From the NCBI GenBank assembly GCA_018400915.1, contig JAGYLW010000007.1, forward strand, positions 1-37,768: DNA of 37,768 nt. The letters are read 5' to 3'. Position 1 is the stretch's first letter, and each line of letters starts with the position of its first letter. The notes beneath the pieces were generated by a model. It was not told the origin of the DNA. It searched no databases and was given only the letters and a program-made list of their open reading frames with translations. Both the position numbers and the translations under genes were made by a program. This DNA comes from Fidelibacterota bacterium. Lineage in GTDB: Bacteria > Fidelibacterota > Fidelibacteria > Fidelibacterales > Fidelibacteraceae. Below are positions 418 through 8,988 of this stretch, piece after piece.

Positions 418-445
418 TTCCCGTCAAAAAATCGTAAATTATAAT
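418..445 (+). promoter_or_regulatory. Predicted sigma-70 promoter of the DUF134/Mrp/NifX cluster
   Basis: A perfect TATAAT lies at 440-445. The -35 region is weak: TTCCCG at 418-423 gives 16-base spacing, while a better hexamer, TTGAAT at 413-418, is 21 bases away. Transcription would start near 451-453, inside the palindrome at 446-457 and about 24 bases before the DUF134 start codon. This is prediction from sequence only. Confidence 0.45.
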
Positions 446-457
446 TGGCATATGCCA
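446..457. promoter_or_regulatory. Perfect 12-bp palindrome, candidate operator
   Basis: TGGCATATGCCA is a perfect inverted repeat directly abutting the TATAAT box and covering the expected transcription start of the cluster. That position suits a repressor. The adjacent gene encodes a DUF134 helix-turn-helix protein, so autoregulation is a reasonable inference. I did not find a second full copy elsewhere in the window. Confidence 0.5.
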
Positions 458-475
458 GAAATGGAGAAAATGAAC

Positions 476-898
476 ATGCCCAGGCCATTTAAGACAAGAC
501 GGATTTACGGCGAGTTCGCTTCGGAGTATTTCAAGCCGCGCGGCCGGCAGCTGGCGGCACTGGAAGAAGTGCATCTCGAAGCCGATGAGATCGAAGCATT
601 ACGGCTTGCAGACCTTGAGGGAAAATATCAGAACGATGCTGCGGAAAAAATGGGGGTTTCACGTCAGACATTCGGAAATATCCTGAAAAGTGCCCGCCGG
701 AAGGTGGCGGATGCCCTGATCACGGCGAAAGCCATCCGTATGAGTCCGGGGGTGTCCGGCGGCATGTGGTGCCGGCGCTGCGGACGAAGCTGGTCGGAAA
801 CGGAAATACAACCCGGCCGTCAGGAATGTCCCGAATGTTATGGCGGAACGGAAACTCCGCTTCGTGGCCGGGGAAGACGAAGAGGTCAAAAACGGTAA
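476..898 (+). CDS. DUF134 (UPF0251) family helix-turn-helix DNA-binding protein
   Basis: This 140-residue protein opens with MPRPFKTRRI, the usual start of DUF134/UPF0251 proteins. It continues through the acidic segment LEADEIEALRLADLEG and a sigma-70-region-4-like helix-turn-helix around residues 49-75 (NDAAEKMGVSRQTFGNIL). A C-terminal zinc ribbon uses C99, C102, C118 and C121, followed by an arginine-rich tail. In-frame starts exist further upstream (TTG 413, ATG 461 and 470). I chose ATG 476 because GGAGAA at 463-468 is well spaced and family members begin here. The family is annotated as DNA-binding and commonly sits beside Mrp-type ATPase and NifX-type genes, as it does here. The likely role is local regulator of this cluster, probably through the palindrome at 446-457 (inference). 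Confidence 0.88.
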   Translation: MPRPFKTRRIYGEFASEYFKPRGRQLAALEEVHLEADEIEALRLADLEGKYQNDAAEKMGVSRQTFGNILKSARRKVADALITAKAIRMSPGVSGGMWCRRCGRSWSETEIQPGRQECPECYGGTETPLRGRGRRRGQKR

Positions 899-921
899 GA
901 TCAAATCAAAAGGAGGATATT

Positions 922-1278
922 ATGCCAAGAGGAGACAAAACAGGACCGGACGGATATGGTCCCATGACAGGAAGGGGGCTCGGCTACTGCAACGGTTATG
1001 AAAGTCCCGGATTTACAAAAGGTGCTCCGCGCGGAGGCGCCGGCTACGGTCGCGGCATGGGCTACGGTCGCGGCATGGGCTATGGTCGCGGCGGCGGTTT
1101 TGGTTTCGGAAGAGGGTTCGGATGGAGAGCGAATTCCGCCCCTTATCCCGGGCCGGCCTATGCTCCACAGGCTCCCAATGACAGATCCGGTGAACTTCGG
1201 GCATTAAAGGACCGGGCTCAACAGATGAAAGAGGACCTTGAAGCCGTCAATGCCCGTATCAGCGAGCTGGAGAAATAG
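922..1278 (+). CDS. DUF5320 glycine-rich small protein
   Basis: The product has 118 residues. The N-terminus (MPRGDKTGPDGYGPMTGRG followed by LGYCNGY) is the signature of DUF5320 proteins. The middle is low complexity, with repeated GYGRGM units at residues 45-60, then a GFGRGFGW stretch. The C-terminal 35 residues form a predicted coiled coil (ELRALKDRAQQMKEDLEAV) ending in SELEK. A strong ribosome site, AGGAGG at 911-916, precedes the ATG. The family function is unknown; members recur next to NifX/NafY-type and Mrp/MinD-type genes in anaerobes. The single cysteine lies in the conserved N-terminal motif. The glycine/arginine-rich style continues in the tail of the next protein, which suggests related histories. 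Confidence 0.85.
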   Translation: MPRGDKTGPDGYGPMTGRGLGYCNGYESPGFTKGAPRGGAGYGRGMGYGRGMGYGRGGGFGFGRGFGWRANSAPYPGPAYAPQAPNDRSGELRALKDRAQQMKEDLEAVNARISELEK

Positions 1279-1279
1279 G

Positions 1280-1606
1280 ATGCTTTACGTTGATCCGGAT
1301 CTGTGCACCGGTTGTGGGGCGTGTGTAAATGCATGTCCCGAAGGCTTTGTCATGGAAAACGGCATCGCTATTGTCAAGGATCCCGATGCTCCGTGTGTCG
1401 GGGAAGCGCAGGGAATATGCCCGGTTTCGGCCATCAGGAACAACGGGCCGGGATCAGAGGCGCCAGCGATGTCCCGGAATCCCGCGCCCCCTTCGACCGG
1501 AAGAGGTTTTGCTTCCGGACAAGGTTCCCGGGGCGGCGGTTTCCGCGGCAGGGGACCTGAAAGGGGCGGTCCTGGTGATATTGTATGCTTCGCGCTGCGG
1601 GCATAA
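1280..1606 (+). CDS. Single-cluster [4Fe-4S] ferredoxin with Gly/Arg-rich tail; C-terminus frameshifted
   Basis: The first 52 residues match small ferredoxins of the Thermotoga type. C9, C12, C15 and C47 (CTGCGACVNACP, later ICPVSAI) are positioned as cluster ligands, and C19 and C39 sit where that type has a disulfide. A proline/glycine/arginine-rich linker of about 50 residues follows. The frame then ends as DIVCFALRA. Removing one base near 1592-1595 would instead continue into a zinc ribbon ending at 1679, so the present C-terminus is probably an artefact or a lesion. The start ATG lies one base after the DUF5320 stop, with GGAG at 1269-1272, so the two genes are co-translated. The likely role is electron carrier for the neighbouring ATPase/NifX-type proteins (inference). 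Confidence 0.82.
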   Translation: MLYVDPDLCTGCGACVNACPEGFVMENGIAIVKDPDAPCVGEAQGICPVSAIRNNGPGSEAPAMSRNPAPPSTGRGFASGQGSRGGGFRGRGPERGGPGDIVCFALRA

Positions 1607-1679
1607 AGAGCCGCACCGGGCGGGACAGCCCTGTTATCAGATGCGCTGTCCGGAATGCAATGCCTTGATGACACGGTAG
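1595..1679 (+). pseudogene. Frameshifted zinc-ribbon C-terminus of the ferredoxin gene
   Basis: In the frame shifted by one base from the ferredoxin, the DNA reads CGHKEPHRAGQPCYQMRCPEC and ends NALMTR with a TAG at 1677-1679. If one base of GCGC at 1592-1595 is removed, the upstream frame joins as VCFACGHKEPH. This makes a four-cysteine ribbon: CxxCGH, then CPEC, with one extra cysteine in PCYQ. I recognise this layout (CxxCG, PH, GxPC, CPxC, MxR) from small proteins in similar clusters. The restored product would be 132 residues. No good independent start codon with a ribosome site is seen for the fragment. It is either a real inactivating indel or a sequencing error. Confidence 0.7.
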
Positions 1680-1709
1680 GGTAAATATACAAAAGATCAG
1701 GATGTGGAT

Positions 1710-1721
1710 CGCATCGATGCG
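1710..1721. repeat. Perfect 12-bp palindrome upstream of the first MinD/Mrp-type gene
   Basis: CGCATCGATGCG is a perfect inverted repeat in the 64-base gap between the zinc-ribbon stop and the ATPase start at 1744. It differs from the palindrome at 446-457. It could be a hairpin or a protein site, but there is no T-run to make it a terminator. Confidence 0.3.
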
Positions 1722-1743
1722 GTGACAGGGAGAATATCTATTT

Positions 1744-2625
1744 ATGAAAATTGCTGTAGCAAGCGGAAAAGGCGGAACGGGGAAAACCACGTTGTCAACC
1801 AATCTGGCATCTTTTCTCGCCGAAAGCCGTGAAACGGTTCTGGCCGACCTGGATGTAGAAGAACCCAACTCGGGCCTGTTCATCCGGGCAGAAGCGGGCG
1901 GGGAGGAAGACAAATATAAAATGATCCCGGAATGGGATGCGGGAAAATGCACTTTATGCGGTATTTGCAGGGAAGTGTGCAATTTTAACGCCATTACGCA
2001 GATCATGGACGAGATCATGGTCTTCCCGCAATTGTGTCACAGCTGTTATGCCTGCTCGGAACTGTGTCCCCGTGACGCATTGCCGATGAAAAAGCAAAAG
2101 ATGGGGGTGCTCCGCTATTTTAAGCAGGGAAATCTTTCCTTTGTTGAAAGTGAACTTGACATCGGTGAAGAGCAGGCGGTGCCGCTGATAGCGCAGACCA
2201 TTGCATACGTGGACAGGCATTGTCCCGGGGATGTCATCAAGATCTTCGATGCCCCGCCGGGAACTTCCTGTCCCGTGATTGAGGCGACAAAAGATGCCGA
2301 CCTCGTTATTCTGGTTACGGAACCCACGCCCGTGGGCCTGCATGATCTCAGCCTGGCGGTTGAGACCATGAAAGCACTGAAAAGGGATTTTTGCGTTGTC
2401 ATCAACCGTGACGGTCTGGGGAATGCCGATGTGGAAAGCTATTGCGTCAGGGAAAATATCCCCGTCATTGCAAAGATCCCGAATCAGAGGAGTATCGCGG
2501 AGTTTTATTCCGACGGAAAATTGTTATATCATGAGATCAGTGCGGTGAAAGATGCCCTGGAGAAGATCATCGCTTATATTGATGCAAGGCCCGGGGCCGG
2601 GAAAACGGAGAAAGGTGCGGAATGA
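1744..2625 (+). CDS. MinD/Mrp-superfamily P-loop ATPase with inserted 2x[4Fe-4S] ferredoxin domain
   Basis: The protein has 293 residues. A deviant Walker A motif, GKGGTGKTT, begins at residue 8. Switch-type aspartates follow in LADLDVEEPN. An inserted ferredoxin domain carries C69, C72, C75, C79 and C98, C101, C104, C108. The switch II region reads DAPPGTSCP. This is the known 'MinD superfamily ATPase with inserted ferredoxin domain', related to Mrp/NBP35 iron-sulfur carriers and NifH-type fold proteins. Such proteins probably move or insert Fe-S or mixed-metal clusters using ATP, but substrates are not established. GGGAG at 1728-1732 serves the ATG. The gene overlaps the next by four bases (ATGA), and its paralogue has cysteines at identical positions, so the pair may act as a heterodimer (inference). 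Confidence 0.9.
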   Translation: MKIAVASGKGGTGKTTLSTNLASFLAESRETVLADLDVEEPNSGLFIRAEAGGEEDKYKMIPEWDAGKCTLCGICREVCNFNAITQIMDEIMVFPQLCHSCYACSELCPRDALPMKKQKMGVLRYFKQGNLSFVESELDIGEEQAVPLIAQTIAYVDRHCPGDVIKIFDAPPGTSCPVIEATKDADLVILVTEPTPVGLHDLSLAVETMKALKRDFCVVINRDGLGNADVESYCVRENIPVIAKIPNQRSIAEFYSDGKLLYHEISAVKDALEKIIAYIDARPGAGKTEKGAE

Positions 2626-3491
2626 AAGAGATCGTGGTCATATCGGGAAAAGGCGGTACGGGGAAAACCTCACTGACAGCTTCTTTTGCATATTTGGGCG
2701 CTGGGGAGATCATTGTTGCCGACTGCGATGTTGATGCGGCGGATATGCATGTCTTCCTGCAGCCGGATTTTGCAAATGAAAAGGATTTTTACAGTGGGCA
2801 GGTGGCGGTCATTGATCCCGGTATATGTACGGATTGCGGGAAATGCGCCCGGACCTGCCGCTTTGACGCTATCCGTGTCATTAACGGCAGGCATACCGTG
2901 AACGCTCTGGATTGCGAAGGCTGCGGCTACTGTTCGAGGATCTGCCCCGTGAACGCCATTACGGACAAGGACAATCATGTGGGCTGGTGGTACTGTTCCG
3001 CGATCAAGACGGGAGCGAAGATGCTGCATGCGAAAATGAAGGTTGGTGCCGAAAACTCCGGCAAACTGGTCGCAAGGGTCAAAAAGGAAGCAAAACGCAT
3101 AGCGGAAAAAGAAAAGAAGAAGCTCGTGCTGGTTGACGGTTCGCCCGGGATCGGATGTCCCGTGGTCTCATCGCTCTCGGGAGCCAGCTATGTGATCCTG
3201 GTCACGGAACCGACCGTCTCCGGACTGCACGACCTTCAGCGGGTAAGTGAACTGGTCGGAAAATTCCGGATCCGTTCGGGGTGTATTGTGAACAAAGCGG
3301 ATTTGAACAGGCATAAAAGGGATGAGATCCATGCCTATCTGAAACAAAACAATATCGACCACCTTGCCGACATCCCCTACGACGAGACATTCACCCGGGC
3401 AATGGTCAGCGGTAAAACCATGACAGAATTTACCGGAAGCCGTGTGCGGAAAATACTGGAAAGCACATGGAACAAGATCGTTAACAAATAA
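2622..3491 (+). CDS. Second MinD/Mrp-superfamily ATPase with inserted 2x[4Fe-4S] domain
   Basis: This 289-residue paralogue of the preceding protein has Walker A GKGGTGKTS starting at residue 9, DCDVDAADMH as the switch I region, and ferredoxin cysteines C69, C72, C75, C79 and C98, C101, C104, C108. Its switch II segment is DGSPGIGCP. A basic, lysine-rich segment (VKKEAKRIAEKEKKK) near residues 155-170 is absent from the partner. The start overlaps the upstream stop as ATGA, implying translational coupling and roughly equal amounts. Desulfovibrio orange-protein clusters also carry two such ATPases together with NifX-type proteins, so a shared complex handling a metal-sulfur cofactor is plausible. 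The cargo is not known from this sequence. Confidence 0.9.
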   Translation: MKEIVVISGKGGTGKTSLTASFAYLGAGEIIVADCDVDAADMHVFLQPDFANEKDFYSGQVAVIDPGICTDCGKCARTCRFDAIRVINGRHTVNALDCEGCGYCSRICPVNAITDKDNHVGWWYCSAIKTGAKMLHAKMKVGAENSGKLVARVKKEAKRIAEKEKKKLVLVDGSPGIGCPVVSSLSGASYVILVTEPTVSGLHDLQRVSELVGKFRIRSGCIVNKADLNRHKRDEIHAYLKQNNIDHLADIPYDETFTRAMVSGKTMTEFTGSRVRKILESTWNKIVNK

Positions 3492-3517
3492 CACAAGCAT
3501 ATAAAAAAAGGAAGCAC

Positions 3518-3856
3518 ATGAAGATCGCATTTACTTCAAAAGGGAAAGACTGGGATGCACCGATAGATCCGAGGTTCGGCCGCACCGAATATTTCTTCAT
3601 TTACGATGAAGCAAGCGGCGGATCGCGGATCGTTGACAATACGGACGTCACATACGAAGCCCACGGAGCCGGCCCCAAAACGGCTCAGCGGCTTTTCGGG
3701 GAAAAGGCGGAGATCCTGATCACCGGCAACGGGCCGGGCGGGAATGCGGCGTCGGTCCTTGAGAAGGCGGGCATGCGGATCTATACGGGTGCCGGGGAGA
3801 TGAGCGTCAAAGAGGCCTATGAGGCCTATAAGAAGGGCGATCTAAAACAATTCTGA
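3518..3856 (+). CDS. NifX/NafY-type dinitrogenase iron-molybdenum cofactor biosynthesis family protein
   Basis: This is a 112-residue protein of the NifX/NafY/orange-protein family. It begins MKIAFTSKGKDWDAPIDPRF, the usual first strand and loop, then GRTEYFFIYD. A central HGAGPKTAQRLF and a GNGPGGNA glycine loop follow, with a final helix that includes VKEAYEAYKKGDL. Family members bind metal-sulfur clusters such as the Mo-Cu cluster of orange protein or FeMo-co precursors. No nif structural gene is present, so a nitrogenase role is not supported. A clear AAGGAAG ribosome site precedes ATG 3518. The gene is 26 bases after the second ATPase and is likely part of the same transcript. Confidence 0.9.
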   Translation: MKIAFTSKGKDWDAPIDPRFGRTEYFFIYDEASGGSRIVDNTDVTYEAHGAGPKTAQRLFGEKAEILITGNGPGGNAASVLEKAGMRIYTGAGEMSVKEAYEAYKKGDLKQF

Positions 3857-3890
3857 AACCGTTCTCCGGCCTTGTCAAGCTGCGGGCATT

Positions 3891-3930
3891 TACGGATCCG
3901 TATCCCGTGAGGCACGTGCCTTACGGATGA
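3891..3930. repeat. Cluster of perfect and near-perfect inverted repeats between the two NifX-type genes
   Basis: The 141-base gap 3857-3997 holds TACGGATCCGTA (3891-3902, perfect) and AGGCACGTGCCT (3910-3921, perfect). The second extends to a 20-plus-base imperfect palindrome from CCGTG to TTACGG. The flanks GCGGGCAT and ATGCCGCA can pair around them. No T-run follows, so this is not a classic terminator. It could be an mRNA processing or stability structure, or a protein-binding site. Confidence 0.45.
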
Positions 3931-3997
3931 ATATGCCGCAAGGGCCCGGCGGAGCGGAGCAGAAGGAAACAATAAAGAAAAAGAACAGGAGAAAAAC

Positions 3998-4333
3998 ATG
4001 GTTATCAGTGTTCCGGTAGTACAGGAAAGACTATCACAGCATTTTGGTCATTGCGAGACCTTTCGTTTCTATCATACCGACAAGGACAATAACATTGTCA
4101 GTACCGAAGATAAAACGCCGCCTCGGCATGAACCCGGCGTGCTTCCCGAATGGCTCTCGGAGGAGGGGGCGGATGTCATCATTACCGGCGGCATGGGAGT
4201 GCATGCCCAGCGGCTTTTCAGCCGTTACGGAATCAAGGTGGTGCTTGGAGCTCCCCCGGAAGACCCCGGCTGTGTTGTCAGGGAATGGATCGGGGGGAAC
4301 CTGCAGACCGGTGCGAACCCCTGTGATCATTAA
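3998..4333 (+). CDS. Second NifX/NafY-type cofactor-binding family protein
   Basis: The protein has 111 residues and the NifX-type fold, but belongs to a different subgroup from the gene at 3518. It shows SQHFGHCETFRFY near the N-terminus, VIITGGMGVHAQRLF in the middle, and the C-terminal signature GANPCDH. H15, H18, C19, and the final C109 and H111 are candidate metal ligands. The ribosome site is CAGGAG at 3986-3991. It is separated from the first NifX-type gene by a palindrome-rich gap, so its expression level may differ. Paired NifX-type proteins beside Mrp-type ATPases are known in anaerobic bacteria and archaea; the cofactor handled is unknown. Confidence 0.88.
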   Translation: MVISVPVVQERLSQHFGHCETFRFYHTDKDNNIVSTEDKTPPRHEPGVLPEWLSEEGADVIITGGMGVHAQRLFSRYGIKVVLGAPPEDPGCVVREWIGGNLQTGANPCDH

Positions 4334-4358: not shown

Positions 4359-4389
4359 AAAAAAAGCACCCCGCCGCCGGCGGGGTGCT
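4359..4389 (-). terminator. Rho-independent terminator of tRNA-Glu
   Basis: Read on the minus strand, AGCACCCCGCC and GGCGGGGTGCT form an 11-bp GC-rich stem with a three-base loop (4365-4389), followed by a run of seven T. It begins right after the CCA end of the tRNA. On the plus strand no T-run follows, so it mainly serves the tRNA, though it also lies between two convergent units. Confidence 0.9.
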
Positions 4390-4627: not shown

Positions 4628-5407
4628 TCAGGGTTTTTCCAGATAGCTGATCGTGAAATAACGGTCGGGGACATCCGGATTCAGGACAAATTCCCGCATG
4701 ATCATTTCCGAGCTGCGTCCGTTCTGCACATTCCGGACTTTCATGTCGGTGATCAGATAACGCGGGGGTGTTTCACTGACGGTCTCATGATCGGTCACGG
4801 TCAGCACCTTCTGCAGGATGTTGTCAAAATCATAATATTCGGAATGCACGGCCACCAGGGTTTCCTTTGTGATCCAGCTGATCTTGCGGAAAAAGCCGTA
4901 CTCGTCCTCCGCATCCCTGTTGACGGGGCGGATCTCGATCTTCCAGCAGGGAACACCCTGCTGTTCTTCCTCTTCCAGCAGTTCATAACGGAAATCATCC
5001 GGATTAGGAGCGGACATGTCGGCCTTTGAAAATTCCGAACCCATGAAGGAAGAGCTTTTCTCCGAGGACACAATACGCCGCGATTTCCGGCTGACGGGAA
5101 GGTAGATCCACATATCGTCCTCCCGGTCCTCGTGATCGACGATCAGCATGCCCATGCCTTTGACATCCGCAGGTTCAAGGAAACGGATGATGCGCTTTTC
5201 AACATTGTCCGGATAGCTTTTTGAGGCCATAGCGGTGGTCCGCACCCGTTCCCGTTCTTTTGCATCACGGATGACAAGCGTGGAAACCGCCTCCAGTCCG
5301 CTCAGTTTGCTACGTTCACGGGACGACAGAACGATATCCCGCGCTGTCCCGGCGAACAGAGAGGCTCCCAGCAACAGGACCAGGCATGTCACAGATCGTT
5401 TTTTCAT
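4628..5407 (-). CDS. LolA-like outer membrane lipoprotein-sorting protein
   Basis: The product has 259 residues with a signal peptide (MKKRSVTCLVLLLGASLFAG), so it acts in the periplasm. The rest fits the LolA/LolB-like fold of 'outer membrane lipoprotein-sorting protein' relatives encoded beside RND/MMPL exporters. It has a run of strands with KRIIRFLEPADVKGMGMLIV, DDMWIYLPVSRKSRRI, and SKADMSAPNPDDFRYELLEE. The ATG at 5407 was chosen because AAAGGAG precedes it and the signal peptide begins there; the frame stays open further upstream without support. It overlaps the stop of the transporter gene by four bases. It is a likely periplasmic lipid or lipoprotein carrier for that transporter. The cargo is unknown. 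Confidence 0.82.
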   Translation of the reverse strand: MKKRSVTCLVLLLGASLFAGTARDIVLSSRERSKLSGLEAVSTLVIRDAKERERVRTTAMASKSYPDNVEKRIIRFLEPADVKGMGMLIVDHEDREDDMWIYLPVSRKSRRIVSSEKSSSFMGSEFSKADMSAPNPDDFRYELLEEEEQQGVPCWKIEIRPVNRDAEDEYGFFRKISWITKETLVAVHSEYYDFDNILQKVLTVTDHETVSETPPRYLITDMKVRNVQNGRSSEMIMREFVLNPDVPDRYFTISYLEKP

Positions 5408-7680
5408 TTTTTTCTCCTTTCTTCCAGAAATTTGGGTTTCCAGAGCATGCACATGGCCGGTACCAGGACCAGGGCGGCGACAAGACAGACGCTGATAGAG
5501 ATCACCACAAGGAAACCGAAGTACTGTATGGGGCGGAACGCCGAGAACACCAGTGCGGCAAAGCCCACGATCACGGACCAGGCGTTGAACACAATGCCCT
5601 TTCCCGAACCCAGCAATGTGGTACGAACCGCTGTTTCGGGGGTATTACCCCCGCGCAGTTCACTGCGGTAGCGCCAGAGAAAGTGAATGGTATAATCGAC
5701 GCCCACTCCGATCATGATCGAGGACAGCAACGCGGTTGCCGTATCCAGGCGCACGCCGCCGTATCCCATGATCCCGAAGAGAATGATCTCCGCCAGAACA
5801 AGCGGTAGGGAAGCGAACAATCCCGCCGTAAAGGAACGGAAAATAATCATCAGAATGATCGCGATCGCCGTGAAAGCCAGGATCAGTGATTTGATCTGCC
5901 CGTCGACAATGGAAATATTCATGTCCGAAGTGATCATGGCATGTCCGCCCAGCATTTTGACATTAGGGTCATCCCGGGTCAGGTCTTCGATATCGCGGAC
6001 GACTTTCTGGATAATGTATCCGTCCGCCTTGTTGATGCGGACGATCATCTGTGCATGCCGGTAGTCAAAATCGATCAGCTGTTCGAAATCATCCGGGTCC
6101 CCGTTCATATAATACAGTTCGAGATACTGCGCCACCCCCTGTTCCCCCGGAGGCAGGGTATCGTAAAGGGGATGTCCCGGTGCGTACAGTCCTTTCGATA
6201 TTTCACGGATGGCCGTGACGATGGAGGTGACGTCACCGACGTCGGGATGTGACAAGAGGGTCTTTTCGTACGACTGCATGCGTTTCAGCACAGCCGGGTC
6301 CTTGATGTTCCCTTCAAAGAGAACGGACAGGTTCTGTGAACCGCCGAAATGTTCATTGATGACCGAGGAGCTTACTTTGACAGGGTGCTTCTTCTTGAAG
6401 AAATTTTCCATATTCCCGTCGATCTTAAGCATAAAAATGCCGCCGGCCAGTACCAGGGTCAGGATCAGGGCAATGATCATGATCTTTTTCGGATGCACAA
6501 TGATCCGGTCCGAAAGAAAATGCAAAATACGGTCAAGGAAGGAGATCTTCAATTTGCCGTTATGATATTTTTTCTTTTGCGTCCTGACGGGCAGGTAACT
6601 GAGGACGGCGGGGATGAAGAAAAGGCTCAGGAGCACCGCCCAGGTGATCCCGACAGAAGCCAGTATCCCCAGCTGCCGGGCATGGACGATGATATGGACA
6701 AGCAGGCCCAGGATCCCCGCCACCGTGGTGATCCCGGTAACCGTGACCGGCCTTTTCAGGCTGCTGAACGCACCCAGGGCCAGTTTTTTGTTCGTCCATT
6801 CCGGATGCATGCTTTGCAGTTCGTTGTATTTTGCGATAATATGGATCCCGTAATCGTTGGCCACTGCGATCAGCATGACCGGCATGAGGATGGTGACGAT
6901 GGAAATGTGCCAGCCGAGCAGCGGCATCAGTCCGAAAGCAATGATAATGGCCATCAGGACCACCGAAAGCGGAAGGAAAACCCCCCGGAAGCGCCGGAAA
7001 GCAAAATACAGCATGCCCGTCATCAGCAAAAAACCGATGGGCAGAAGGTAGACCACATCCCGGGAAATATCCTGCATGATAGAGGCGTTCACAATGGGAA
7101 GTCCGCCCATATAGATCTTTTCCTCGCCGGGATGTTCCTTTAGGATATTTTGTATTTTCAGGATAATGTCATTCTCTTCAAGATCTTTTCTGACATTCAG
7201 AACGATCGCCGTTTTACTGAGATCCTCCGAGATGACCGTACCACTGACAAAAGGGTTGTCAAGCAGGTCACGCCGCAGCGTTTCGCGGGCTTCTGCGGTT
7301 TCCGGTATGCGGGTTCCCACGGCGGGATCCACCACCATCATACCCTCACGGTGCCGGATGTGCTTTAAGGTGAACAGGGAAGTGACCCGCTCGAACTCAC
7401 TGCGCCGTTCAAACACGCGGGTCAGTTCCTTCACGCGGCGCAGCGTCTCCGGCCTGAGAACATCCTCCGTTTCCAGAACGAGGATAATGATCTTATTGCT
7501 CCCGAAGATGCTTTCGATTGCATCGGTCTGTATCCGCGAGGGCATTTTTTCCGGTATCAGTTCCTTGATGTCGCTTTCAATTTCCAGTTGCGTTAGACCG
7601 AGGACAAAGAGCAGGGTAAGAAGCGGGAACAGGAGGATGATCCAGAAGCGGTATTTCAAAATAAATTTTTCACTGCGCAT
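5404..7680 (-). CDS. RND/MMPL-superfamily transporter
   Basis: The product is a 758-residue inner membrane protein with the duplicated RND layout. Each half has one membrane helix (first WIILLFPLLTLLFVLGL), a large periplasmic loop, then five helices. Both halves carry the conserved fourth-helix segment: VANDYGIHIIAKY in the first and GVGVDYTIHFLWRYRSE in the second, where the aspartate relays protons in this family. It belongs to the 'predicted RND superfamily exporter'/MMPL group associated with lipid or hopanoid export, not to the AcrB drug-efflux type. It lies 12 bases after the barrel protein gene and overlaps the LolA-like gene. The trio suggests inner membrane pump, periplasmic carrier and outer membrane acceptor (inference). 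Confidence 0.88.
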   Translation of the reverse strand: MRSEKFILKYRFWIILLFPLLTLLFVLGLTQLEIESDIKELIPEKMPSRIQTDAIESIFGSNKIIILVLETEDVLRPETLRRVKELTRVFERRSEFERVTSLFTLKHIRHREGMMVVDPAVGTRIPETAEARETLRRDLLDNPFVSGTVISEDLSKTAIVLNVRKDLEENDIILKIQNILKEHPGEEKIYMGGLPIVNASIMQDISRDVVYLLPIGFLLMTGMLYFAFRRFRGVFLPLSVVLMAIIIAFGLMPLLGWHISIVTILMPVMLIAVANDYGIHIIAKYNELQSMHPEWTNKKLALGAFSSLKRPVTVTGITTVAGILGLLVHIIVHARQLGILASVGITWAVLLSLFFIPAVLSYLPVRTQKKKYHNGKLKISFLDRILHFLSDRIIVHPKKIMIIALILTLVLAGGIFMLKIDGNMENFFKKKHPVKVSSSVINEHFGGSQNLSVLFEGNIKDPAVLKRMQSYEKTLLSHPDVGDVTSIVTAIREISKGLYAPGHPLYDTLPPGEQGVAQYLELYYMNGDPDDFEQLIDFDYRHAQMIVRINKADGYIIQKVVRDIEDLTRDDPNVKMLGGHAMITSDMNISIVDGQIKSLILAFTAIAIILMIIFRSFTAGLFASLPLVLAEIILFGIMGYGGVRLDTATALLSSIMIGVGVDYTIHFLWRYRSELRGGNTPETAVRTTLLGSGKGIVFNAWSVIVGFAALVFSAFRPIQYFGFLVVISISVCLVAALVLVPAMCMLWKPKFLEERRKK

Positions 7681-7692
7681 GGCGGGGTTTCC

Positions 7693-8988
7693 TTAAAATG
7701 AGATCCTGATCTCCGCAAATAATCCGTTGTACTGTTCGGACAGAAGCTCAAAGAGCGTGTTGTCCTCGCCTTTGTAAACGGTGGCGCCCAGGCGGATACG
7801 CAGAGCGTCCGCCGGTTCGAAGCTTATTGACGGAGAGAACATGTATTCACTGCCGGTAAAGTAATACAGAAAGGGGGCTTCTATTTCAAAGGTATCATGA
7901 AAAAGCGTCAGCGAGGGACGGATAAAAACCCCGTGCCGGACTTTGTCCTGCTGGCTGAAGAAAAGGCGTTTGTAGGTCAAAAGCCGGTAATCCATGAGCA
8001 GGGCGGGATCCGAAGGAAGCGCCAGTTCCGAGAATGCCGGTATGTATTTTCCGTTGTATTCCACAAGGATCCGCAAAGGCCCCCACGCCCGGTCCAGCCC
8101 GAGCGTCCACTGAACTTCTTTCTCGGGGATGTGGATCTGATCTCCCGCACTGTCGGGGAGCATGTAACTTCCCTCAAAGCGGAAACTCCAGGCGTCTGCG
8201 GTAAATGCCGCATCAAATCCGACGACCTGCTGTCGCCAGGGTTTCTGGTAAAAGCGGTAGCGTATATCCGTCGGGGAATGCACCTGCATTTCCGCGGAAA
8301 ATCCCGGCTGCAGCGCATAGGCATTCAGATAGGAGAATCCGGCGTCGTATTCGCTTGTCGCAAGATCGAGGCGCAGTGCGCCGCCGCTGTTCTTAAGCAC
8401 GGCGTCCGGCGTGAGGATCCCGCCGTACCGGACATTGTCCGGCATTTCAAAAAGCCCGGCAGGAATGATATTGGCGCGGTACACCGGGATCCATATGCCC
8501 TGCAGGCTCGAGGACATGCCCAGGCGCACACTGCTGTTCAGGAAGAAGTTTCCCATGCGCATATCACCGGGATCCCCGTATACGCGGCGGAGGTCCTTCG
8601 GACTGAGGTTGTCAAGGGAGCTAAAGGCGTCCGCGCGCCCCCAGATCTCGATCTGTTTTCCCAGGCGGGTCCGGAAAGGGCCGAAACCGAGATCGACGTA
8701 AGCTTCACGGAGGTTGATCTCCAGGGTGTCTTTCCCCGAAAGCCGGTGATGACGCAGGCGCAGTTCCGCAAAGGCATATGCACGCCGGCCCGCCTCTGCT
8801 TTCAGGCCGATATCAAGGCGGGAAAAAAGATCTTTCGTATGCAGGGAATCCGTCGCGCCGCCGGCGAGCAGTCCGCTGCGGATTTCCCCGCTCAATGCAT
8901 AGTTGAACGTTTTGGACTGCGCACTTTCAAAGAGTCCCTGGGCGAAGACCAGGGATACCGTAAAAAGGAGAACGAACAGTTTTTTCAT
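7693..8988 (-). CDS. Outer membrane beta-barrel protein, DUF1302-like
   Basis: The product has 431 residues, with a signal peptide (MKKLFVLLFTVSLVFAQG) and amphipathic beta-strand repeats to the end, closing in a terminal phenylalanine (AEIRISF) as expected for an outer membrane barrel. The segment LREAYVDLGFGPFRTRLGKQ then IEIWGRADAFSSLDNLSPKD strongly resembles DUF1302-type proteins, which are found with MMPL transporters. No transport substrate can be read from the sequence. It is the first gene of the envelope operon. An AT-rich stretch just upstream (TATTAAT on the minus strand around 9014-9020) could carry a -10 element, but no good -35 is visible. Confidence 0.8.
   Translation of the reverse strand: MKKLFVLLFTVSLVFAQGLFESAQSKTFNYALSGEIRSGLLAGGATDSLHTKDLFSRLDIGLKAEAGRRAYAFAELRLRHHRLSGKDTLEINLREAYVDLGFGPFRTRLGKQIEIWGRADAFSSLDNLSPKDLRRVYGDPGDMRMGNFFLNSSVRLGMSSSLQGIWIPVYRANIIPAGLFEMPDNVRYGGILTPDAVLKNSGGALRLDLATSEYDAGFSYLNAYALQPGFSAEMQVHSPTDIRYRFYQKPWRQQVVGFDAAFTADAWSFRFEGSYMLPDSAGDQIHIPEKEVQWTLGLDRAWGPLRILVEYNGKYIPAFSELALPSDPALLMDYRLLTYKRLFFSQQDKVRHGVFIRPSLTLFHDTFEIEAPFLYYFTGSEYMFSPSISFEPADALRIRLGATVYKGEDNTLFELLSEQYNGLFAEIRISF

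Follow-up and report, generated by a model that had tools for sequence, protein, structure and literature searches.

The window analysed here, a 37,768-nucleotide stretch of DNA from a Fidelibacterota bacterium, makes up the whole of contig C172 in a 1.72 Mb genome assembled as 204 contigs (87.7% complete), and it carries a cluster encoding a ferredoxin, two MinD-type ATPases and two DiNase-domain proteins (NifXa and NifXb) along with DUF134 and DUF5320 proteins. Reading frames combined with Pfam and NCBIfam searches resolve eight co-directional, closely spaced units on the plus strand, one of them disrupted, the same count as in an earlier note on this DNA. The cluster starts at 446 once we include a candidate operator, the palindrome TGGCATATGCCA (446-457, no strand assigned; TTGGCATATGCCA when counted from 445). 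Next come a DUF134 regulator with a helix-turn-helix and a CxxC-CxxC knuckle (476-898, the likely start being the ATG at 476; PF02001, 4.3e-20, 72.5 bits) and a DUF5320 protein composed of a cationic Gly/Arg/aromatic-rich stretch and a C-terminal coil (922-1278; PF17253, 2.6e-25, 89.9 bits), each in excess of a cut-off of 27 bits. A single-cluster ferredoxin with a Gly/Arg-rich tail (1280-1606; Fer4, 3e-10, 39.9 bits) has a shortened frame that stops at 1606, and its zinc-ribbon tail (RCGHKEPHRAGQPCYQMRCPECNALMTR) runs on in the +1 frame (1593-1679). Compared with homologous ribbons of this gene neighbourhood, whose CxxC spacing serves as the reference, the window has one extra base at 1589-1592, either an assembly error (single-base errors being possible in a metagenome) or a genuine mutation; a ferredoxin-ribbon fusion was not seen among the other loci examined. 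ATPase 1 (1744-2625) and its paralogue ATPase 2 (2622-3491) overlap by four bases and are followed by NifXa (3518-3856; PF02579, 1.1e-17) and NifXb (3998-4333; PF02579, 1.7e-18). The unit ends at a terminator-like hairpin (4365-4389, no strand assigned) whose scored T-tail is on the minus strand, and beyond it lies a tRNA-Glu on the opposite strand. RNA regulation of the leader was considered and rejected, as an Rfam scan gave no family other than the tRNA.

That the cluster is real is virtually certain. Its genes form a linked module that recurs far more often than expected by chance: of 245 genomes of the phylum, 41 carry ATPase 1, 42 carry DUF5320 and 45 have a DUF134 match above cut-off, and ATPase 1 co-occurs with DUF5320 in 38 of 41 genomes (Fisher test, 2e-36) and with DUF134 in 34 of 41 (3e-25), keeping in mind that these tests ignore relatedness. 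Rare co-occurrence, the outcome that the earlier note had named as fatal to its own proposal, is thus ruled out. ATPase 1 and DUF5320 lie no more than 10 kb apart in 29 of the 30 genomes that have both on one contig, and ATPase 1 adjoins ATPase 2 in most genomes of the phylum that bear it. Related sets are found in 80 named bacterial and archaeal loci, with Spirochaetes, Campylobacterota, Bacteroidota, Desulfobacterota, Chloroflexota, Planctomycetota, Methanosarcina and Bathyarchaeota among the groups represented. Where ATPase 1 is clear (68 loci), a NifX-type gene is found within 6 kb in 63 (two or more in 46), and the same distance takes in DUF5320 in 31, DUF134 in 26, an Mrp-like (Mrp/NBP35-type) ATPase in 26 and an IscU-like (IscU/NifU-type) scaffold in 15. 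DUF89/ARMT1, radical SAM, metallo-hydrolase, CGGC and ArsP_2 proteins are further repeated neighbours outside this genus.

The two ATPases, assigned from profile matches, cysteine alignment and structural models, had been said to carry their Fe-S cysteines at identical positions, and this is literally true: eight ferredoxin-type cysteines, making up two [4Fe-4S] motifs, occupy residues 69, 72, 75, 79, 98, 101, 104 and 108 in both. A ninth cysteine is located in switch II, at Cys176 of ATPase 1 (DAPPGTSCP) and Cys179 of ATPase 2 (DGSPGIGCP). It falls into a single column when the profiles of the two families are aligned, and it is invariant in all 99 ATPase 1 and all 110 ATPase 2 sequences. Its position seven residues past the switch II aspartate mirrors the spacing from Asp125 to Cys132 in NifH, where cysteines 97 and 132 hold the bridging cluster. 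A cluster bridging the switch II cysteines is what one might infer from this; no conserved Cys97 equivalent is found in the ATPase 1 and ATPase 2 alignments, and a NifH-like arrangement is therefore uncertain. Short-fragment PDB searches gave no usable alignment of the ATPases to NifH or BchL, and we used the spacing, together with a weak BchL match that spans the switch II cysteine region, instead. AlphaFold monomer models are confident (pLDDT 95.4 for ATPase 1 and 93.5 for ATPase 2), and their structural matches are to MinD (the top match), NifH, BchL, HypB-type and Cfd1/ApbC ATPases, placing the pair in a class with carriers and reducers of metal clusters. Neither matches PF10609 (Mrp/NBP35) over its full length; the best stretch spans residues 2-62 in ATPase 1 and residues 3-25 in ATPase 2.

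The label NifX/NafY-type, previously given to the two DiNase proteins, is too specific. NifXa scores 16.6 bits against TIGR02663 (NifX), where the cut-off is 112, and no match is listed for NifXb, so that we reject NifX proper as an identity for either. The reported lack of nitrogenase genes extends from the window to the whole genome, in whose 87.7% complete assembly PF00148 (NifD/K-type) was not found; given this and the TIGR02663 score, a role in making nitrogenase cofactor is rejected too. The expectation of orange-protein-like relatives, on the other hand, was borne out. NifXa is cysteine-free and has TM1290 (4.6e-19), orange protein (2WFB, 8.8e-12) and MTH1175 as its nearest solved structures. 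NifXb is nearest to TM1816 and PH0822 among solved structures and matches the C-terminal domain of MrpORP at 1.2e-31 (NF041136). A third PF02579 protein is encoded elsewhere in this genome (G000:C146:10269-10532, L003), and its subtype forms part of the extended cluster elsewhere in the phylum.

Natural fusions tie these proteins to DUF5320, which has a median pI of 9.6, 21% Gly, 11% aromatic residues and one Cys. In two loci (L123 and L133) a NifXa-type domain is joined, through a linker that includes a coil-like stretch, to a NifXb-type domain in a single polypeptide, with 41-53% identity to the window proteins; a model of the coil alone matches L133 significantly (1e-8) and L123 weakly. NifXa is fused to a Gly/Arg stretch and coil in six others (L092, L093, L106, L107, L116 and L146; E values of 4e-5 to 1e-10 in the coil-only model, which matched none of the shuffled controls), and the L106 chain carries two extra [4Fe-4S] motifs besides. 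Judging from these fusions, NifXa, DUF5320 and NifXb probably form one complex. Other combinations are NifX-ribbon, DUF134-ribbon, DUF134-NifX, ferredoxin-DUF5320, IscU-Mrp and Mrp-NifX. The coil-only model did not bear out an apparent IscU-DUF5320 fusion in L084 or the coils of L118 and L123.

The designation of DUF134 as the regulator, also made earlier, is backed by the conserved palindrome, which is very probably a DUF134 operator. TGGCATATGCCA occurs exactly once in the genome, directly before DUF134. Of six exact copies across the 19 genomes of the family, five stand immediately ahead of DUF134 (G000, G011, G012, G013 and G017) and the sixth is inside a long open frame; in G010 and G005 the site before DUF134 differs by one mismatch. 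In relatives from several phyla the equivalent site is TGAACATATGTTCA. Allowing up to one mismatch, it is found 22 times in 1.5 Mb of loci, and all 22 copies are at cluster promoters. The gene that follows is DUF134 or, in operons not led by it, NifXa, DUF5320, an Mrp-type gene or whichever gene comes first. As controls, 20 shuffled palindromes produced 0 or 1 match each, and the reversed pattern produced none. Note that these loci were selected for holding the cluster; specificity rests on whole-genome scans instead, where TGAACATATGTTCA is also found at other places, especially before SorC-type regulators. Nine control matches in supposedly unrelated upstream regions turned out, on inspection, to be promoters of the same clusters.

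The half-sites change along with the DUF134 recognition helix. The segment SR[PS]TF[ST]R pairs with TGAAC-type half-sites, SRQTFGN, found in the window's family, with TTGGC, and SRQTFGR with TGGGC or TGAGC; several DUF134 genes that lack a good site are exceptions to the pairing. SorC-type regulators next to rpiB (L161-L165, L171, L176, L178 and L179, from other families of the phylum) have TGAACATATGTTCA before their own gene and carry SRPGVSR, which shares part of the DUF134 segment, and this lends support to the link between helix and site. They have the segment and the site in common with DUF134 but are longer (about 316 amino acids), belong to another family and lack its knuckle. That knuckle, present after the helix in 36 of 46 DUF134 proteins, is plausibly a metal sensor. 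Repression is suggested by the placing of the operator, which ends 18 bp upstream of the start codon and lies directly against a TATAAT hexamer (440-445); a sigma-70 promoter scan did not exceed shuffled expectation and gave no match before DUF134. We would expect, from sequence, that DUF134 binds this DNA, represses and senses. Cluster operons that are not headed by DUF134 (L063, L067, L129, L134, L089 and L052) still carry the operator, suggestive of control in trans. In two genomes in which ATPase 1 was not found (G243 and G244; L167 and L168), DUF134 and its operator adjoin a permease-like gene that resembles ArsP_2, a hint of a link to metal export.

What, then, might the module do? To call it an undescribed metal-cofactor system, as the earlier note did, overstates the case: all protein families are catalogued, two relatives are characterised (PMC6345978, PMC5524996) and a dedicated new cofactor is not shown. 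Both characterised relatives, the MrpORP/orange protein (ORP) complex and IssA, point to iron-sulphur storage or transfer, and on balance, if with no great confidence, we favour this purpose for the present module as well, mainly because of the DiNase-coil fusions and the likeness of DUF5320 to the IssA tail. In this scenario, the operon would hold and move iron-sulphur (metal-sulphide) material in an anaerobe, under the control of its own DUF134 protein. NifXa as a cysteine-free DiNase cradle, NifXb as a His/Cys-bearing DiNase protein and DUF5320 would constitute one body, the cationic Gly/Arg/aromatic stretch and coil of DUF5320 serving as a multimerising tail, so that the three would amount to a split IssA plus the DiNase domain of MrpORP and bind anionic Fe-S species. 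The ATPases would work as a pair, probably a heterodimer, with two [4Fe-4S] clusters each and perhaps a bridging or transferred cluster at the invariant switch II cysteine. Ferredoxin would bring electrons, and ATP hydrolysis would power loading or release to target proteins, whichever the direction of transfer. DUF134 would bind TTGGCATATGCCA beside the promoter, most likely repressing the operon until a change in iron or sulphide status is read by the CxxC-CxxC knuckle.

Several observations weigh against this model. Its cargo is one that we infer from relatives, NifXa stands by itself without an IssA tail, and a Cys97 equivalent is not conserved in the ATPases. The ferredoxin/ribbon gene is frameshifted in the window and the clusters of same-genus relatives (G010, G012 and G013) show no such ferredoxin, so that the ferredoxin is not essential. 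Finally, Mrp and NifU/IscU genes are present elsewhere in the same genome, so that the module is not the general route of Fe-S assembly.

There are a number of other scenarios. In one, NifXa would carry a Mo-Cu (or other Mo-heterometal) sulphide cluster as orange protein does, with the ATPases assembling or inserting it. The cysteine-free NifXa does match 2WFB, and the ORP complex is built from the same set of ATPases and DiNase proteins (PMC6345978), but TM1290 is the closer match to NifXa, the cluster contains no Mo-specific gene, and frequent IscU and Mrp neighbours as well as the IssA-like fusions indicate iron, leaving this scenario unlikely. It is no less unlikely that the ATPases are an ATP-dependent reductase, a NifH/BchL-like pair feeding low-potential electrons to some acceptor, with the DiNase proteins in an accessory role. 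Although each ATPase has a ferredoxin domain and an invariant switch II cysteine, and NifH and BchL are among the structural matches, no conserved catalytic partner is found in the core cluster, the second NifH ligand is not conserved, and the pair is linked to proteins of storage or scaffold type. Considerably less probable still is a role in cell division or intracellular positioning, as once proposed for ORP proteins: MinD is the top structural match, orp genes were reported as having a putative part in septum positioning (PMC3897727) and MrpORP is polar in the cell (PMC6345978), yet the ten metal-type cysteines of each ATPase and the Fe-S neighbours and fusions are unlike a pure positioning role, and a patchy distribution (41 of 245 genomes) is unlike that of a division gene. 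Least probable is that a module conserved elsewhere is decaying in this genome, since beyond the ferredoxin/ribbon frameshift, which could be a single-base metagenome error, every other frame is uninterrupted, the operator is undamaged and residues that do not vary among relatives are retained.

Genes of this cluster are found in anaerobes of many phyla, annotated merely as DUFs, 'MinD' or 'NifX', and we found no functional study of DUF134, UPF0251, COG1342, DUF5320 or COG1149 in a literature search that did not extend to subscription papers. Through the operator, DUF134 can be assigned a specific predicted function, the fusions point to the proteins expected to assemble together, and the ninth cysteine singles out a residue of interest in the ATPases. 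If the storage model holds, anaerobes possess, in distributed form, an equivalent of ferritin or IssA that has its own ATP-driven delivery step. One might go further and imagine a widespread, unrecognised machine by which anaerobes store and deliver iron sulphide, in which a split IssA (NifXa, NifXb and DUF5320), loaded and unloaded by a paired ferredoxin-ATPase, is governed by a DUF134 repressor that senses Fe-S status and acts on a CATATG-centred operator with helix-following flanks; this composite picture is tentative, and we consider it rather doubtful as a whole. Further along the window, on the minus strand (4628-8988), are a 758-amino-acid transporter-like gene and partners of 274 and 431 amino acids, whose relatives are found next to the cluster in G231, G240, G241 and, in part, G012.

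Set against known ATPases, the pair shares a deviant Walker A, fold class and the switch II cysteine at NifH Cys132 spacing with NifH, BchL, CooC and Mrp-NBP35. Unlike these, the window ATPases have an inserted 2x[4Fe-4S] domain and are nearly always paired; of the two cysteines (97 and 132) that hold the bridging cluster in NifH and BchL only the 132-type position is conserved, and, unlike Mrp-NBP35, they are not full-length Mrp matches.

IssA (SipA), the thioferrate storage protein of Pyrococcus furiosus (PMC5524996), combines a DiNase domain with a cationic Gly/aromatic-rich stretch, as several cluster relatives do in one protein, and DUF5320 resembles its tail in charge and composition (PMC5524996). 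Proteins of the IssA clade are up in pyrite-grown Methanococcus voltae (PMC9431491, PMC8516115). In the window, by contrast, the DiNase domain and the tail, which comes with a conserved coil, are encoded by different genes beside Fe-S ATPases, and because NifXa and DUF5320 are not one polypeptide here we do not file the set as IssA.

The ORP complex of Desulfovibrio vulgaris (Orp3, Orp4, Orp5, Orp8 and Orp9, with MrpORP) likewise features a linked pair of MinD-type ATPases that each bear two [4Fe-4S] motifs, a likeness of architecture only rather than of direct alignment to D. vulgaris, and an orange-protein-like DiNase protein together with an MrpORP-type DiNase domain. MrpORP transfers Fe-S to the ORP proteins Orp3 and Orp4 in vitro, and its DiNase domain binds [3Fe-4S] (PMC6345978). 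As the earlier note said of Desulfovibrio, where sigma-54 is involved in regulation, the same ATPase pair adjoins sigma-54 activators in sulfate reducers (PMC3897727; also seen in the loci compared). In the ORP system such an activator controls divergent operons. The note was also right that no enhancer-binding protein is adjacent here; the only strong match in this genome is on contig C20, and sigma-54 control is rejected. Unlike MrpORP, an Mrp-DiNase fusion, NifXb stands alone with the Mrp gene on another contig, and no Orp5 is recognised (a small Cys-rich neighbour of 67 amino acids has no Pfam match, and we do not claim that name for it). Lacking both the Mrp fusion and the sigma-54 activator, the window set is not filed as ORP. 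It further differs from ORP in having DUF5320, the ferredoxin/ribbon and the DUF134 operator. As far as the searchable literature goes, neither this operator nor the tri-domain fusions seem to have been described before. In sum, the window set represents a variant form of iron-sulphur handling systems that are already known.

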